Source: Tepidiforma thermophila (lineage in GTDB: Bacteria > Chloroflexota > Dehalococcoidia > Tepidiformales > Tepidiformaceae). Taken from it: a stretch of DNA of 64,000 bases. The stretch covers positions 2,108,001 through 2,172,000 of the forward strand of contig NZ_PDJQ01000001.1 of NCBI RefSeq assembly GCF_002563855.1. Direction: 5' to 3'. The position numbers were made by a program, and so were the translations under genes. How positions within the stretch are numbered: position 1 is the first letter of the stretch; the number at the start of each line of letters is the position of its first letter. Below are positions 11,653 through 18,413 of the stretch, piece by piece. The notes beneath the pieces are model-generated. The model did not search any database. It had not been told where the DNA came from and was given only the letters and a program-made list of their open reading frames with translations.

Positions 11653-13287
11653 GTGAGCGGTGGCGGGAGCCCGGTGCCCCGGGTGGATGGCGATGCGTTG
11701 CGGGCGCTCTTCGAAGCGGGCGCTGCGGCTGTCGCAGCGGCGGCACCGGCAATTAACGCCATCAACGTGTACCCGGTGCCGGACGGCGACACGGGCTCGA
11801 ACATGGCGGCCACGCTCCGCGAAGCGGCGGCCGCCGCGAAGGAGGTTTCGCCCGGGAGCAGCGCAGCCGAGGTGGCCGAGGCAGCGGCGCGCGGAGCGCT
11901 GTACGGGGCGCGCGGGAATTCCGGCGTCATCCTCTCGCAGGCGCTGCGGGGGTTCGCGAAGGGGCTTGCGGGCGCCGCGGAGCTCGATGCGGCGCGGCTC
12001 GCGGCAGGATTGCTGGCCGCAGCCGAGGCCGCATATGCCGCCGTCAGCCGGCCGCAGGAGGGAACGATGCTGACGGTGCTGCGCGAAGCGGCGCAGGCGG
12101 CGCAGGCGGCCGCCGCTCAGATGCCCGGCGAGGGCGCGGGACTCCCGTGCCTCGCGGTGCTGGAGGCAGCCGCCGCTGCCGCGCGGGAGGCCGAGGAGCG
12201 GACCATCGACCAGCTGGAATCGCTACGGGAAGCGGGCGTCCCCGACGCAGGGGGCGAGGGCGTATGTGTCTTGCTCGGGGGCATGCTCGCGCAGTTGAAG
12301 GGCGAGGAGCTGCAGCTCGAGGAGTTCGGCGCAGGCGGCCACGCCATGGAGTTTGCTGCGGCCCACGCCGGCGACACGTACGGGTTCTGCACCGAGTTTG
12401 TGCTCGAGCCCGTCACCGGGGCGGTGCTCGACCTGCCTCGCGTCAGGGCCCTGGCCGAGGGGCTGGGGCAGAGCGTGGTGGTCGTGGGGGACGAGCGGCT
12501 GGCGCGGGTGCACGTTCACACGGAGCAGCCGGATGCGCTGCTCGCGGCGATGGCGGACCTGGGCCGGCCGGAACGGGTGAAGGTCGACGATATGGACGCC
12601 CAGCGCGCCCGGTTTGAATCGGCGGGGAGCGGCGCCACGGCCGCCGTCGGATTGCTGGCATTGAGCCGGGGCGCCGGCTTCGACCGGCTGTTCGAGAGTC
12701 TCGGTGCCCGGGTGGTGGACCTTGGGATGGTCGAGAAGCCGGCCGCGGGGGATATCGCGCGGGCCGCTGAGCGCATTGGGACAGCGGACGTCATCGTGCT
12801 TCCAAACCACAGGAACGTGCTGCTCGCGGCCGAGCAGGCGGCGCAGCTCGCACGCTGCACGCTGCACATCGTGCCCACGACAACTCTCCCGCAGGGGGTC
12901 GCGGCGGCGCTGGTGTTCGACCCCGGGGCGCGGGCGGCAGAGCTCGCCGACCGGATGGCCGGGGCTGCGCAGGCCATGCGGACGGTTGAGGTAACGCGCG
13001 CAGCGGCGTCGCGGACGGCGGACGGCGTCCGCGTGGAGGCGGGCCAGGCGATTGCGGTGGTCGACGGCCGGCTGACGGCGGCCCGAGACAGGCTCGAGGA
13101 CGCGCTGGCCGAGGGGCTGGCGGCTGCGGGCGCAGGACCGGGGACGCTGGTAACGGTCTATGTGGGAGAGGGCGGGGATGCCGGCCTCGCGGGTGATACG
13201 GTGCGCCAGCGGTTCCCCGCCGCAGAGGTGGAGGTCATCGACGGGGGGCAGCCGCTGTACCCGTACATCGCATCGGTGGAGTCATGA
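11653..13287 (+). CDS. fakA: DAK2 domain fatty acid kinase, FakA/YloV-like
   Basis: This 544-residue protein has an N-terminal DhaL/DAK2 nucleotide-binding domain (about residues 1-200) with the motif NVYPVPDGDTGSNM and the ARGNSGVILSQ segment, then a middle domain and a C-terminal lobe (about 330-544). FakA phosphorylates fatty acids presented by FakB, feeding exogenous acids to phospholipid synthesis; no FakB is in the window. The start is GTG at 11653. The long Ala-rich stretches are typical of this genome. Confidence 0.88.
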   Translation: MSGGGSPVPRVDGDALRALFEAGAAAVAAAAPAINAINVYPVPDGDTGSNMAATLREAAAAAKEVSPGSSAAEVAEAAARGALYGARGNSGVILSQALRGFAKGLAGAAELDAARLAAGLLAAAEAAYAAVSRPQEGTMLTVLREAAQAAQAAAAQMPGEGAGLPCLAVLEAAAAAAREAEERTIDQLESLREAGVPDAGGEGVCVLLGGMLAQLKGEELQLEEFGAGGHAMEFAAAHAGDTYGFCTEFVLEPVTGAVLDLPRVRALAEGLGQSVVVVGDERLARVHVHTEQPDALLAAMADLGRPERVKVDDMDAQRARFESAGSGATAAVGLLALSRGAGFDRLFESLGARVVDLGMVEKPAAGDIARAAERIGTADVIVLPNHRNVLLAAEQAAQLARCTLHIVPTTTLPQGVAAALVFDPGARAAELADRMAGAAQAMRTVEVTRAAASRTADGVRVEAGQAIAVVDGRLTAARDRLEDALAEGLAAAGAGPGTLVTVYVGEGGDAGLAGDTVRQRFPAAEVEVIDGGQPLYPYIASVES

Positions 13288-13652
13288 GGGGGCGGAGCGC
13301 CGTCATCGCAGTTTGCCTGGCGGTCATGGGGAGCGCCTGCAGCGGCGGAGCGGGTGCGCCGGAGGCAACACCGACGAAACCGGGCGCACTGCCGGCGAAC
13401 CTGACGACGATCACCGTGACTGACTTCCGCTTCCAGCCGCGAAGTCTGCAGGTGCCGGTCGGCACGCGGGTGACCTGGAGCTTCCGCGGGAAGGAGAGCC
13501 ACCGGGTAACGGGCACCTTTGCGGGCGAGGAGGTGGATTCCGGTGAGCTGCGGAGCGGCAACTTCGAGTTCGAGTTCACCGAGCCCGGCGTGTTCGCCTA
13601 CACCTACGGGGTGCACGGAGCTGCAATGTCCGGGCAGGTCATCGTCCGGTAG
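13284..13652 (+). CDS. Cupredoxin-like lipoprotein lacking the copper Cys
   Basis: This 122-residue protein has a signal peptide ending in a lipobox (GSAC, Cys19), a short Pro/Thr linker and a plastocyanin-like beta domain (about residues 40-122). The candidate ligand His in KESH and the C-terminal H-x3-M (HGAAM) are present. The position that holds the copper Cys in the usual F-x-Y-x-C-x2-H-x3-M pattern is Tyr here (FAYTYGVH). A type 1 copper site is therefore doubtful. It overlaps the FakA-like gene by four bases. Confidence 0.82.
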   Translation: MRGRSAVIAVCLAVMGSACSGGAGAPEATPTKPGALPANLTTITVTDFRFQPRSLQVPVGTRVTWSFRGKESHRVTGTFAGEEVDSGELRSGNFEFEFTEPGVFAYTYGVHGAAMSGQVIVR

Positions 13653-13726
13653 CGCGTCCCGGCACCGGGCGGTTCTTTCGTTCCTGTTATGGCAGAGCCA
13701 AGACTGTTGTGGTATACCGTCCGCGG

Positions 13727-13754
13727 CACTCCGGGAGCGGAGCGGCCGGAGGTG
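13727..13754 (+). promoter_or_regulatory. Leader hairpin that could hide the Shine-Dalgarno, copy A
   Basis: CACTCCGG (13727-13734) can pair with CCGGAGGTG (13746-13754), apart from one bulged base. The right arm contains the ribosome-binding site GGAGGTG. The same hairpin is kept in copy B. Confidence 0.4.
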
Positions 13755-13759
13755 ACGGG

Positions 13760-13965
13760 ATGCACCAGGGGCAACTCAGCCCGCGGGAGCGGGAAGTGGC
13801 CGGGCTCGTGGGTGCGGGATGACGAACGCTGAGATCGCACGCTTGCTCGGATTGAGCGCGTCCACCGTGAAGCACTACGTCGAGTCCGCCATGCGCAAGG
13901 CTGGTGCGACGAACCGTATCCCACTGGCGATGTAGCTGCGCGACCAGCAGGATGGGGCCGGATGA
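13760..13965 (+). pseudogene. LuxR-type HTH regulator, frameshifted copy
   Basis: This is the degenerate twin of the intact gene at 15936. A one-base deletion within 13808-13815 puts a TGA in frame at 13820, and a later TGG has become TAG at 13933-13935. An internal ATG at 13819 could still give a 38-residue fragment beginning MTNAEIARLLGLS and covering the DNA-recognition helix, coupled to the first piece by ATGA. Whether that fragment is made is unknown. Confidence 0.85.
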
Positions 13966-14094
13966 CCCCCGGCCGATCGGCGGGGGCCAAAGAGCCGTAT
14001 TGCGGGGCTACGTGGCCTGTTTGTACGGTGCTGCCCGGCGCCGACCACTGCTGCCCTCCTGCCACCGACAGACTTCTCCAAGGGACAAGCTACA

Positions 14095-14757
14095 ATGCAA
14101 GGCCATCTTCAACCTCGGAGGCACGCCGTATCGCGGACTCTCCTTTCACTGGCATCAATGCTGGCTGTTGCGGGAGCCTTTGTGGCAATGCTCGATGTCG
14201 CGCGGGCAGATTACACGCCTCCGGCCGGACCGTATAACCACGTTGTCGGGCCTAACGGCGCTCAAGTGCAGAACCAGGGAACTCCGCTTAGTCCGTCGGA
14301 CGCGGTGGGTGCGTGAAACTCCTGGACCGGAACTTCGAAGCTCTCGTTAGGTACGTCCTGTGCAGGAGTCTGTATCATCTACGCGAACTCTGGAGCTACG
14401 CTATACTACACATCATGTGTCGTACCGTATCCTTCATCAGGTGCCTGGGCAGACCTTCGCATAGCCGCAGGAACATCGGAAAACAACTTAGGGTGCACAT
14501 CGCTCGGATCCGACACGAACCCGATTTTCGTAGTCAACTATTATAGTGCTCCCAGCTATAGCCATCTGCACGCTAAGCGGCACGAGATGGCCCATGCCCT
14601 GGGACTGAACGACACCTCGACATCATGCTGGGCGTGGTGGGTTGGATATCAACCTTTGATGAACAACGGAACCTTTGGCACCTGTTCAGGTTTCCCCTAC
14701 AACTACACGGCTTCCAACAATGAAGTTGCGGCGGTCATCAGCCGTAATGGCTGGTAG
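14095..14757 (+). pseudogene. Secreted snapalysin-like metalloprotease with an in-frame TGA
   Basis: One frame runs from the ATG at 14095 to the TAG at 14755-14757, broken only by a TGA at 14314-14316. The first 73 codons encode a signal peptide (LLSLASMLAVAGAFVAML, cleavage near ARA) and a short mature region. The 146 codons after the TGA encode a Cys-rich domain with HEMAHALGLND at 14581-14613, an HExxHxxGxxD zinc motif as in M7 snapalysins. A Met-turn-like PLMNNG and further Cys residues follow. TGG to TGA is the simplest explanation of the break, giving a Trp in AVGAWNSW. GC content is clearly lower than in flanking genes, suggesting transfer. Confidence 0.72.
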
Positions 14758-14787
14758 CCCGAAATCGGCAGTTTACGGAGAGAAACA

Positions 14788-15714
14788 ATGCGAATCATTA
14801 CACTGGTCAGCCTGGCGTTGCTTACAGTCGCCTTTGGCGCTGCGCCGGCTGCAGCCCAGGCGCCCGCGCCGAGTGTCCGCGCTTCTTCGCCGGTGAACGT
14901 CGTCGGACGAGATGGTGCGATGAACGTCGTCGGCAACCTCCCGGCCTCCTGTGCAGGTCGGGAGGTCGAGGTCGGGCTCTTCATCCGCGACCGCGGCGAC
15001 CCGAAGGTGATCACGCCGTTCGAACCCTCAAACACCGCTCGAACGAACGCCGCAGTATCAGCCGCCGGGACATTTTCGGTCTCATTCCCGCTCCCTCGGG
15101 AGCTGCCGGATGGCCCCACCCGCGTGTGGCCGGGAGTCCAGGGCGAGTGCCTCGACGCTCCCGTCGTCGATGATTCGCTCGGTGTCGAGCTGGCGGTCCT
15201 CGACCCGGGGCGCAACCCCGGGAACACCTCCACGATCCTCCTGTCATCGGCCGCACTGGCCAGCCTCTCGAACGGGCCCGACAGGACCTCGCTCGGGGCC
15301 TTCCTCGGTTCTGTAGAGGTGCGTGCGGACGGCGAGCGTTGCACAGGGGTCGCGACTAATGGCGTATCGGCAGGCTCGCCGCCGCTCGCTTTGCGACTCG
15401 GCGAGGCGGGCCAGCCGGCCGCGTGCTCGAGGGCCGGCGCCCGGCTGACGTTCTTCAACAGCCGCGGCCAGCGGCTCTTCGTGGAAATGGAACTGATCCC
15501 CGGGGTTACGCGGTTGCTGGACAACTTTGCGGCCGCGCCTCCCGGAACGGGTGACCCATCGCCGGTCGGCGCCGCGCCCAACCCGCCTGCAACCGGCCAG
15601 CTTCCTGGCGACGAATCACGTAGGTTCACGCCCCTGGGCATCGCAGGCGCCGGACTCGTCGCGCTGGCAGCACTGCTGGGCGCCCTGGGGTTTGCAGTTC
15701 GCCACAGAGCCTGA
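14788..15714 (+). CDS. Exported protein with a C-terminal membrane anchor
   Basis: This 308-residue protein has a signal peptide (residues 1-24, ending AAPAAAQA), a mature domain with repeated VNVVGRDG/MNVVGN-like text at its start, and a C-terminal Pro-rich segment with PPATG. A transmembrane helix (about 283-303) and a basic tail RHRA follow. The tail resembles a sortase-type cell-wall sorting signal, with PPATG standing for LPxTG, but no sortase is in the window. Function is unknown. A GGAGAG ribosome-binding site precedes the ATG, and the gene lies 30 bases after the broken protease. Confidence 0.75.
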   Translation: MRIITLVSLALLTVAFGAAPAAAQAPAPSVRASSPVNVVGRDGAMNVVGNLPASCAGREVEVGLFIRDRGDPKVITPFEPSNTARTNAAVSAAGTFSVSFPLPRELPDGPTRVWPGVQGECLDAPVVDDSLGVELAVLDPGRNPGNTSTILLSSAALASLSNGPDRTSLGAFLGSVEVRADGERCTGVATNGVSAGSPPLALRLGEAGQPAACSRAGARLTFFNSRGQRLFVEMELIPGVTRLLDNFAAAPPGTGDPSPVGAAPNPPATGQLPGDESRRFTPLGIAGAGLVALAALLGALGFAVRHRA

Positions 15715-15903
15715 ACGAGGGGCCCGCGCAGCGGAATTCAGCCGACCCCTGCCCAGCGGCGGGGGTTCGCTGCTATTGCCGATGGGTCCGGGTTGGCACT
15801 CCTGTGCTCTTCTTGCACTCGTCCGCTGCAGTCGCGGCCAATCGCCCACGTTTACTCTCAAGTGATGGAGGCGACCCCGGATTTGTGCTATTACATCCCC
15901 CGG

Positions 15904-15931
15904 CACTCCGGGAGCGGAGCGGCCGGAGGTG
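15904..15931 (+). promoter_or_regulatory. Leader hairpin that could hide the Shine-Dalgarno, copy B
   Basis: CACTCCGG (15904-15911) can pair with CCGGAGGTG (15923-15931), covering the ribosome-binding site just before the ATG at 15936. Confidence 0.4.
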
Positions 15932-15935
15932 AAGG

Positions 15936-16139
15936 ATGGACCAGGGACAACTCAGCCCGCGGGAGCGCGACGTGGCGAGGCTGGTGGCGAGCGGGATGAC
16001 CAACGCGGAGATCGCACGCTCGCTCGGATTGAGCGCGTCCACCGTGAAGCACTACGTCGAGTCCGCCATGCGCAAGGCTGGTGTCACGAACCGTGTCTTG
16101 CTTGCCATGTGGCTGCGCGACCGGGAGGGAGCCGGTTGA
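15936..16139 (+). CDS. Single-domain LuxR/GerE-type HTH regulator
   Basis: This 67-residue protein is little more than a LuxR-type DNA-binding domain. LSPRERDVARLVASG begins the domain, TNAEIARSLGLSASTVKHYV forms the helix-turn-helix, and AMRKAGVTNRVLLAMW follows. It has no receiver or ligand domain, so it is a GerE-like stand-alone regulator. It sits directly upstream of a membrane protein and a secreted protein that it may control. A frameshifted twin lies 2.2 kb upstream. Confidence 0.88.
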   Translation: MDQGQLSPRERDVARLVASGMTNAEIARSLGLSASTVKHYVESAMRKAGVTNRVLLAMWLRDREGAG

Positions 16140-16231
16140 TCCCGGCCGATCGGCGGGGGCCGAAGAGCCGTATTGCAGACTCGGTCGGCTGGAGCGACGC
16201 TTCCTGACGCATCCCTCGGGGGAGGAACGAG

Positions 16232-17050
16232 ATGCGATTCATCTCTCAAGTGCGGCAGCGACTGTTCGGCACTCTGATGCGTCCGCGCACCGTCCTCCTT
16301 ACCGGGCTCGGTCTGGCGGCGTTCCTCTCTGGCTTCATACTGATGCGTGGAATCGTGGGCAGCGGCATTTGGGACCCAGGTAATTCCGCCGTCGCCGACC
16401 CCGGACCTGATTCGGGAGTCGGCAATCTGACAGAAATTCCCGTGAAACCGGACCTCACAACCACACCGCCGCTCGAACCGTGTTCGCCCGCCGCGTATCC
16501 GCTGGATTCCGCGGGCCGCACCGTGTGCGACGAGAACACCCGGGGAAAGTTCGAGGGCACCATCGCCGGTTTGCGCATTGCACCGGACAGCACCGGGTTC
16601 GGTGAGCACACCGTGCCCTGTAAAGAGCCCGCGAGGCGCATCGCCGACACCGACACCGTCGCCGGGAGTTCGATGGACATCTTTGTGCGCGGACTACCAA
16701 AGGGCTGGTCCGATGCACCGGGTACCGGCTACACAGCCTGGGCCTGCGACGGCCGGGTGGTTACGTCCGACCGACTTGTCAGCATCGCACCTGCCGTGAC
16801 GGTCCACATCGTGAAGTACTTGCGCCCCGAGGCCTGGGCGGCTGTTGCGGCCTCGCCAGAGCGCTTCTCGACGACGACTGTCGCTTCGAACCAGGTCATC
16901 GTCGTTGCAGGCATCCCCGGGCTTGAGTCCGTTGATGCACGCGTTGTGTTCGCGGAGAAGTCGATGGAAGGATTCGCCGTGACCGAGGTCATCGGTCACG
17001 GGGCAACCGCCGCCCAGCTCGTCCAGGTCGCCTCGGAGTTGCTGAAATGA
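16232..17050 (+). CDS. Membrane-anchored extracytoplasmic protein of unknown function
   Basis: This 272-residue protein has a short basic N-terminus, one transmembrane helix (about residues 20-42), a Pro/Thr-rich linker with several Asp residues, and an extracytoplasmic domain (about 80-272). Cys residues occur in EPCSPAAYP, TVCDEN, VPCKEP and WACDGR, and could form disulfides. No known family is recognised. A GGGGAGG ribosome-binding site precedes the ATG. It overlaps the next gene by four bases, so the pair is co-expressed downstream of the intact HTH regulator. Confidence 0.75.
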   Translation: MRFISQVRQRLFGTLMRPRTVLLTGLGLAAFLSGFILMRGIVGSGIWDPGNSAVADPGPDSGVGNLTEIPVKPDLTTTPPLEPCSPAAYPLDSAGRTVCDENTRGKFEGTIAGLRIAPDSTGFGEHTVPCKEPARRIADTDTVAGSSMDIFVRGLPKGWSDAPGTGYTAWACDGRVVTSDRLVSIAPAVTVHIVKYLRPEAWAAVAASPERFSTTTVASNQVIVVAGIPGLESVDARVVFAEKSMEGFAVTEVIGHGATAAQLVQVASELLK

Positions 17051-17754
17051 ACGTCCGTCTCCCGTCTTTTCTGTTTGCCATCTTGCTGGCCGCCGGTGCA
17101 GCTATGGGAGCTTTTTCGCCGAGACCTGACGCTGGAGCTACTACGGCAGCCACCATCTACATCTACGCGGGCGTTGATTACGGAAATGCCTATCTGACGT
17201 GCGGTTGGCATCTTGACTGCTCAGCTTCCCCCATCGCTAAGGAGCGAGGCCTTGACTTCATCGCGACAAGTGACCCTTATTGGACCGCGCGCGCCTTCTT
17301 TCATGGGTGGGGATTCAATACTACCGCTTCACCGACTTTCATTGGGTATATGCTAATCGGAAACGATCCGGCACCAGGAAATTCAAACTGCCCGGCCACA
17401 TCCGTGAAGATTCACAATCAGTCAGCTTATCCGAAATCTGGCATGTACTACATACATAGTTCAGCAATCAACAGCGGGAGTTGGTATACTCTCTATGGTC
17501 GCAATTTTTCTTCGGGCGGATATTGGAATACCCGCCACGTCGGGAATTTCGCACAAACTGGCAGCTGCCCTTCGGCCCCACACATCATGACCTGGTACGC
17601 GAGCCTTGACGGCACGTACAACGTGCTGCCGCGGGATCCCTGGTACAACTGCCCGTTGGCGGCACCAGTTTTTCCCTGCACGACAGCGACGTACCAGCAG
17701 CTTCCCCGTGACCTATCCGACTGGATCTACGTGACGCAGTACTCGAATCCTTGA
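17047..17754 (+). CDS. Secreted Cys-rich protein of unknown function
   Basis: This 235-residue protein has a signal peptide (about residues 1-22) and a mature domain rich in aromatic, Ser, Thr and Asn residues. It has six Cys residues (TCGWHLDC, NSNCPA, GSCPSA, YNCPLA, PVFPC), consistent with disulfide bonds outside the cell. No family is recognised. Part of the gene (about 17150-17560) is less GC-rich than the chromosome around it, as in the protease remnant, suggesting acquired DNA. It is coupled to the upstream anchored protein by an ATGA overlap. Confidence 0.75.
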   Translation: MNVRLPSFLFAILLAAGAAMGAFSPRPDAGATTAATIYIYAGVDYGNAYLTCGWHLDCSASPIAKERGLDFIATSDPYWTARAFFHGWGFNTTASPTFIGYMLIGNDPAPGNSNCPATSVKIHNQSAYPKSGMYYIHSSAINSGSWYTLYGRNFSSGGYWNTRHVGNFAQTGSCPSAPHIMTWYASLDGTYNVLPRDPWYNCPLAAPVFPCTTATYQQLPRDLSDWIYVTQYSNP

Positions 17755-17819
17755 GCCGGCGCCGACAGGCGGTTGGCCCAGCGACAGCCTGCTTGCTTGA
17801 TGGACCGGTTAGCGGCCCG

Positions 17820-18413
17820 TCAGGCGTAGCGCTGCTCTTTCCAGGGGTCGCCGTAGATGTGGTAGCCGTAGGTCTCCCAGAAGCCCGGCCGGTCGCGGTC
17901 GAGAAACTGGATGCCGCCGACCCATTTCGCGCTCTTCCAGAAGTAGAGATGGGGGACGACCAGCCGCATCGGCCAGCCGTGCTCTTTCGTCAGGGGCTGG
18001 CCGTTGTGGGAGTGGGCGAAGAGGACGCCTTCACGCAACAGGTCTTCGAGCGGCAGGTTGGTCGTGTAGCCGCCGTAGCAGTGAATCATCGCGTACTTCG
18101 CTTCGGGCTTAAGGCGGATGGCATCGTAGAGCGCGCGGAACGGCACACCCTCCCAGGTGTTGTCGAACTTGCTCCAGGTTGTGACGCAGTGGATATCGCT
18201 CGTGTCGGTCACCTGGCCGAGGGCGTTGAACTCCTCCCAGGTAAACGATTTCTCTTCCTCCACGAGCCCCCAGACGTGGAAGCGCCAGGTTTCGAGGTCG
18301 ATGCGCGGGATGCTGCCGTAGTGGAGGACCGGCCACCCGGTGGTGAGGTGCTGGCCGGGCGGGAGCCGGGGTTTCCCGTCGGGGCGGAGCTCTTTCGACG
18401 CCGGGGTGGACAT
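17820..18413 (-). CDS. Molybdopterin-dependent oxidoreductase, sulfite oxidase family
   Basis: This 197-residue protein is a compact sulfite oxidase-fold molybdoenzyme. The molybdenum-ligand Cys is seen in IHCVTTWS, followed by W-x-GVPFRAL and the GGYTTNLPLED segment; the C-terminal HGWPMRLVVPHLYFWKSAKW is typical. It resembles the YedY/MsrP catalytic group, but with no visible signal peptide it appears cytoplasmic. A GGAGGAA ribosome-binding site precedes the ATG. Its physiological substrate is unknown. Confidence 0.88.
   Translation of the reverse strand: MSTPASKELRPDGKPRLPPGQHLTTGWPVLHYGSIPRIDLETWRFHVWGLVEEEKSFTWEEFNALGQVTDTSDIHCVTTWSKFDNTWEGVPFRALYDAIRLKPEAKYAMIHCYGGYTTNLPLEDLLREGVLFAHSHNGQPLTKEHGWPMRLVVPHLYFWKSAKWVGGIQFLDRDRPGFWETYGYHIYGDPWKEQRYA

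Follow-up and report, generated by a model that had tools for sequence, protein, structure and literature searches.

Silent pilin cassettes, polymorphic toxin loci and integron cassette arrays are modular exchange loci, in which a constant part is joined to variable cargo. The locus described here resembles them in its repeated constant sequence before variable exported genes, in recombination between the repeats and in horizontal exchange. It lies in a 64,000-nucleotide stretch of the Tepidiforma thermophila genome, hereafter the window; this genome is a single contig of 2.74 Mb from the same genus as the congener G121, which is compared below. The window copy appears to represent a small, horizontally moving locus found in Tepidiforma-type bacteria of hot springs, where a near-constant unit stands before secreted and surface-anchored proteins that are exchanged between species; what makes this copy of interest is the wider cassette system of which it is a part.

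Results

Layout and composition of the island

The island separates a cupredoxin-like gene from a molybdopterin-binding oxidoreductase gene (Table 1), the latter being present in 32 of 38 genomes of the family. Between them lie two leader-plus-HTH cassettes that share 88% identity across 284 bp (E 1e-96), each followed by genes for exported or anchored products, with signal peptides and membrane segments assigned by eye. The initial annotation had recognized both cassettes and the exported products behind them, and both are present; the first HTH gene, however, is a pseudogene, and to place the island under a duplicated regulator is wrong for its present state, since copy 1 is broken by a frameshift and a TAG codon. 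The 308-, 272- and 235-aa genes are all open, and module A is decaying in the window while module B is intact. As secretion machinery genes are absent from the locus, the term "secretion locus" is better replaced by "exported-protein locus".

Table 1. Positions of the island features and of their neighbours within the window
Feature	Position	Strand	Remarks
Cupredoxin-like lipoprotein gene	13284..13652	+	Left neighbour of insertion site; PF13473 E 1.1e-5, just under cut-off
Invariant 5' block, cassette 1	13725..13752	+	GGCACTCCGGGAGCGGAGCGGCCGGAGG; untranslated leader with ribosome-binding site; from alignment
HTH copy 1, pseudogene	13760..13965	+	Broken by a single frameshift and an in-frame TAG; G060 (sister species) has an intact orthologue
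3' element, cassette 1	13969..14002	+	34-bp pattern matched exactly; R1 profile E 2.4e-11
Module A secreted metzincin-like (snapalysin-like) protease gene	14095..14757	+	Single frame with in-frame TGA at codon 74; HEMAHALGLND
Module A 308-aa surface protein	14788..15714	+	Signal peptide, PPATG sorting-like motif, C-terminal membrane segment; intact
Invariant 5' block, cassette 2	15902..15929	+	94.5% identity between genera
HTH copy 2, intact 67-aa single-domain LuxR/GerE-type regulator	15936..16139	+	PF00196 E 1.8e-18
3' element, cassette 2	16142..16175	+	CCGGCCGATCGGCGGGGGCCGAAGAGCCGTATTG; proposed cargo operator/promoter; 98.2% identity between genera
Module B 272-aa protein, N-terminal membrane anchor	16232..17050	+	75% homologue in G106; truncated remnant in G121:C2
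Module B 235-aa secreted Cys- and aromatic-rich protein	17047..17754	+	GC 0.55; partial homologue in G106
Molybdopterin-binding oxidoreductase (Oxidored_molyb)	17820..18413	-	Right neighbour of insertion site; PF00174 5.7e-43

Parts of the island had been described as AT-richer than the genome, and GC indeed falls to 0.52 at 14400-14799 and 17200-17599 compared with 0.69 for the window. Strong GC-poverty is nevertheless limited to the secreted genes (GC3 0.58-0.60), whereas the anchored genes are intermediate (0.75) and the HTH is normal (0.85). The same pattern was found in every host, with GC3 of 0.48-0.65 for secreted-protein genes against about 0.85-0.9 for flanking genes and intermediate values for the anchored partners.

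No recombinase, integrase, transposase or mobile-element gene was found among the ORFs of the 13.7-17.8 kb island. A phage or plasmid origin was rejected for want of phage, plasmid or close viral matches: island DNA matched no plasmid, the HTH had a single weak viral match (39% identity), and the module C protein found in two congeners had no match in viral contigs.

A single-domain regulator between conserved non-coding blocks

The GerE domain of HTH copy 2 spans residues 5-59 of 67, and a receiver or ligand domain is absent. At E 1e-12 this HTH was not seen beyond the family in the class samples. The unit is made up of a putative promoter region, a 28-nt 5' block, the gene for the 67-aa LuxR/GerE HTH and a 34-bp 3' element. 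Variable cargo follows, usually a GC-poor secreted protein of disulphide type together with a partner anchored in the membrane or wall. Between the Tepidiforma copies and those of G106 (KLAP124, another genus), identity reaches 94.5% in the 5' block and 98.2% in the 3' block; it is 89-90% at the first two codon positions, 66% at the third, 65% in upstream sequence and 45% in downstream sequence. The 3' element starts just after the HTH stop codon, and this block is still recognizable in distant cassettes.

A sequence profile built from the 3' element alone (R1) returned 17 sites in the 38 family genomes, 15 of which were cassettes already known, and all 17 were directly preceded by a single-domain LuxR gene. 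The two new sites, in G111 and G114, accompany HTHs of 43-51% identity, too divergent to have passed the cut-off of a preceding protein search. Exported genes follow both; those of the G114 module include a GC-poor secreted protein, a lipoprotein and a MauE-type protein. These two sites constitute an out-of-sample test of R1, yet their HTHs were found by inspecting the DNA beside the matches. A profile rebuilt to include them and applied with stricter filters (R2) gave zero further sites in 393 Dehalococcoidia genomes. The 3' element never occurs apart from its HTH in the genomes searched, which argues for local control, and a trans regulon was rejected because the element occurs nowhere else in them. 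That the locus may be regulated, as the initial annotation had proposed, thus gains indirect support from an invariant, HTH-linked element.

The fixed position of the 3' element between HTH stop and cargo start, together with its very strong conservation, would also suit an attenuator or riboregulator, acting as RNA in an operon of HTH and cargo, in place of a DNA operator. We regard this as unlikely, since predicted folding energies of the blocks were like those of shuffles, Rfam gave no match, and the differences among 11 copies of the element do not suggest a conserved stem; on the first two grounds RNA structure was rejected as the explanation of the blocks. The 3' element could still act in RNA or in recombination instead of as the operator that we favor.

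Empty sites, cargo exchange and interspecies transfer

In three of five congeners (G120, G122 and G123) the cupredoxin and molybdoenzyme genes are adjacent, a few dozen bases apart, which represents the empty site. The sister species G060 has flanks 90-95% identical to those of the window and both HTHs intact, but unrelated DNA replaces window positions 14008-14841 and 16176-17824, with sharp edges after the 3' element. HTH1 of G060 is followed by a 63-aa membrane protein and HTH2 by module C, which consists of a secreted protein, an anchored partner and a small membrane protein; the 308-aa gene is retained without the protease. In another congener, G121, the site is occupied by a single HTH with module C, and a decayed HTH with a truncated 272-aa gene lies elsewhere.

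Comparison of G060 with G121 revealed approximately 3 kb of the locus at 97-100% identity, comprising the end of the DAK gene and the cupredoxin gene (100%) and the HTH with module C (97-100%); the flanks are mostly 66-92% identical, the molybdoenzyme beyond being at 87%. Such a tract amid far less similar flanks shows recent horizontal transfer between species, and the cupredoxin gene was part of the transferred block. Together with the empty site, this tract supports the view, already expressed in the initial annotation, that the locus was acquired. Our guess is that transfer perhaps proceeded by homologous recombination after DNA uptake.

The single G121 cassette is a chimera, 100% identical to G060 HTH1 upstream and to G060 HTH2 in the HTH coding part and beyond, with the crossover inside the 28-nt 5' block and with HTH1 and module A missing. 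Recombination of one cassette with another, with loss of module A, would be expected to yield just this arrangement. Cassette 2 of the window is likewise a mosaic, its upstream part resembling that of G060 HTH2 (91% versus 54%) and its HTH protein being nearer to G060 HTH1 (96% versus 87%). Between the window and G106, dS is 0.5-0.8 for island genes and 0.86-1.36 for flanking genes; for the molybdoenzyme (0.86) the difference is small, and weaker than for any other flanking gene.

At this site G106 has four modules, each consisting of an HTH, a GC-poor secreted protein and an anchored partner, spread across two contigs. The contig starting at the cupredoxin side holds module D (a matrixin-type protease with an anchored protein) and module B, while the second holds module A, with an uninterrupted protease and a PPDTG protein, and module C, followed by the molybdoenzyme. 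In G102 and G104 the leader is kept at the same site, the HTH is lost, and a small membrane protein lies downstream. The initial annotation had suggested asking whether the block recurs at other loci, and it does: beside gyrA in G102 and G104, where the cassette precedes a C-type module, at other loci in G100 (matrixin-type protease and lipoprotein), G105 (a further secreted protein) and G103, and as the decayed copy in G121. Several of these genomes are fragmented MAGs, and the G103 and G111 modules are poorly resolved.

The multiplication of a nearly constant cassette, with four copies in G106 and identity that ends sharply past the 3' element, raises the alternative that the cassette is a selfish, spreading repeat behind which exported genes stand by chance. 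We consider this highly improbable, as all followed-up copies with readable downstream DNA precede exported or membrane genes, purifying selection acts on cassette and cargo alike, and where the HTH is lost the leader remains before another membrane gene; neither a transposase nor terminal repeats were noticed.

Cargo proteins and their constraints

Apart from the metalloproteases, the cargo appears to match nothing known. The lack of a recognizable family, noted for three of the exported proteins by the initial annotation, extends to all four in the window, which were unmatched in Pfam, NCBIfam, PADLOC and PHROGs; the 235-aa protein was also without matches among PDB sequences and phages. Literature searches found nothing on the locus, in line with the suggestion that it may be undescribed. 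AlphaFold2 models were poor, with a pLDDT of 35 for the module C secreted protein (from a 4-sequence alignment) and 36 for the 235-aa protein. A scan of 84,980 species for the module C protein found four genomes, all of this group, by a close-pattern search that could miss distant relatives. Across all modules the secreted proteins contain 4-6 Cys, 12-18% aromatic residues and 3-6% Lys+Arg, and most are not detectably interrelated.

The gene described as a snapalysin-like protease does encode an HExxHxxGxxD zinc motif (HEMAHALGLND) behind a signal-like N-terminus, but its frame is broken by a TGA codon and no curated profile matched it: the best Pfam score was PF00413 at E 0.25, below cut-off, and there was no NCBIfam or PDB match. 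Because of this score, the protease assignment rests on the motif. An uninterrupted homologue in G106 is 87% identical and has a zinc motif that ends in E, and the protease was found in one of 400 sampled Chloroflexota genomes. The accompanying 308-aa protein is 91% identical in G060 and 69-70% identical in G106. Its C-terminus combines a non-canonical PPATG motif, recognized by eye (PPDTG in G106), with a hydrophobic segment and a basic tail; as the genome encodes five sortases (PF04203), this protein is perhaps held at the surface by a sortase.

Over the inter-genus distance, omega was 0.06-0.09 for the protease and for C221, the module C secreted protein, indicating strong purifying selection, and 0.2-0.35 for the partners. 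Wherever cargo is broken in the Tepidiforma loci, it is a secreted-protein gene beside open neighbours, the decayed G121 copy being the exception, although the sample is small. This pattern, exemplified by the interrupted window protease beside the intact 308-aa gene, by G060 C221 with three stops beside an intact partner and by the G060 308-aa gene kept without a protease, is what would be expected of effector and immunity pairs, in which the secreted protein harms neighbours, the anchored partner protects the producer, and kin competition drives the exchange of cargo seen between close relatives. The secreted proteins are, however, the most conserved part of the modules and not diversifying, and two types of them are metzincin-like proteases of an ordinary kind. 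In G121:C2 the partner has also been broken, and neither toxin nor defence models matched; no toxin domain was found in the tested cargo by PADLOC, Pfam or NCBIfam. We therefore give effector and immunity pairs only a small share of our credence. Anti-phage defence was rejected, the cargo having no PADLOC match.

Purifying selection on the secreted proteins also fits a reading in which the modules encode regulated enzymes that work outside the cell, in the use of nutrients or in biofilm life, each a secreted protease or binding protein with an anchored carrier, exchanged for niche adaptation. Matrixin-type proteases in the G106 and G100 modules and sortases in the genome fit this reading, as does the MauE-type redox membrane protein of the G114 module, which would suit disulphide formation in secreted proteins; on the other side, known folds and functions are lacking for most of the secreted families. 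We judge the case for extracellular enzymes to be almost evenly balanced, and it is compatible with the explanation that we prefer.

Discussion

We consider it probable that the island is a modular, recombining locus of exported-protein cassettes, each module being controlled locally by its own GerE-like HTH. The genome comparisons establish that the unit recurs at this site and elsewhere in several genera, with its cargo swapped between sister species, and that the block has moved recently between species, the cassettes recombining with each other in their conserved parts. Mechanistically, the HTH would bind the adjacent 3' element, a candidate operator/promoter of the cargo, and thereby control the neighbouring genes in cis, while the repeated cassettes would supply the homology by which modules are gained, lost and exchanged. 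Outside the cell the exported pairs would be at work, as metzincin-like proteases in two modules and as members of orphan families in the others, and the anchored partner may hold, process or protect against the secreted protein at the surface. Cargo order and partner type vary among modules, the anchored gene coming first in module B, which weakens the notion of one mechanism common to all pairs.

More tentatively, and with somewhat less confidence than we place in the extracellular-enzyme reading, we propose an undescribed, family-wide cassette system in which a LuxR gene between invariant blocks acts as local switch and recombination anchor for exchangeable secreted and anchored pairs at fixed sites, giving these thermophilic Chloroflexota a tunable exoproteome. 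At least five kinds of exported cargo, mostly from orphan families, are linked by a common regulator and a common short DNA element, and that element is sufficient for finding members, as was the case for two genomes. The locus is also a clear example from nature of how species exchange modules when regulator cassettes recombine, in a lineage that has been little studied, and it offers a definite, testable candidate protein-DNA pair.

Comparison with known systems

The 67-aa protein of the window resembles GerE-type single-domain LuxR regulators (PF00196) in consisting of the HTH alone. It differs from them in that it is repeatedly the first gene of exported-protein modules, with a fixed 34-bp element after its stop codon and no sporulation context. 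With matrixin- and snapalysin-like metzincins (M10, M7), the G106 and G100 modules share proteases that pass the PF00413 cut-off, and module A of the window shares the zinc motif; the window gene is set apart by its sub-threshold score and its interruption. The 308-aa protein is like sortase-anchored surface proteins in its PPxTG motif, hydrophobic segment and basic tail, and in the sortase genes of its host, although its putative sorting motif is PPATG/PPDTG and not LPxTG. Compared with the modular exchange loci introduced above, an integrase, an attC site and a toxin domain were not found here; instead, the constant part consists of a regulator gene with its non-coding blocks, and whole gene pairs are exchanged behind it.

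Variation among the cassettes and their surroundings

Two relatives that keep the cassette leader at the island site (G102 and G104) have lost the HTH gene, so that the leader runs directly into a small membrane protein gene, and they thus provide a natural deletion of the regulator. In the tandem modules of G106, which belongs to another genus, incomplete cupredoxin gene copies also precede the HTH, indicating that the duplicated unit there would formerly have taken in this left neighbor of the island. A putative promoter resembling GTGATGGAA ... GTGGTATGAC upstream of the HTHs is common even to the distant cassettes of the gyrA locus. Directly downstream of the decayed cassette in the congener G121 lie genes that appear to encode a Flp/Tad pilus, and five sortase-family genes are present in the genome containing the window.

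Positions of cassette variants and associated genes
Feature	Locus	Genome:contig	Coordinates
Promoter-like sequence		window	15820-15895
Leader without HTH	L042, L043	G102, G104	
Partial cupredoxin gene	L028	G106:C69	10595-10888
Partial cupredoxin gene	L029	G106	
Decayed cassette, truncated 272-aa gene	L027	G121:C2	6093-6691
Sortase-family genes	L074-L078	G000:C1	
3′ element terminus	L100, L101	G111, G114	

In the two genomes whose cassettes were found through the 3′ element (G111 and G114), this element terminates in ATTGAAAG/ATTGAAAC. Many CRISPR repeats have a similar 3′ end, a likeness that is probably coincidental.
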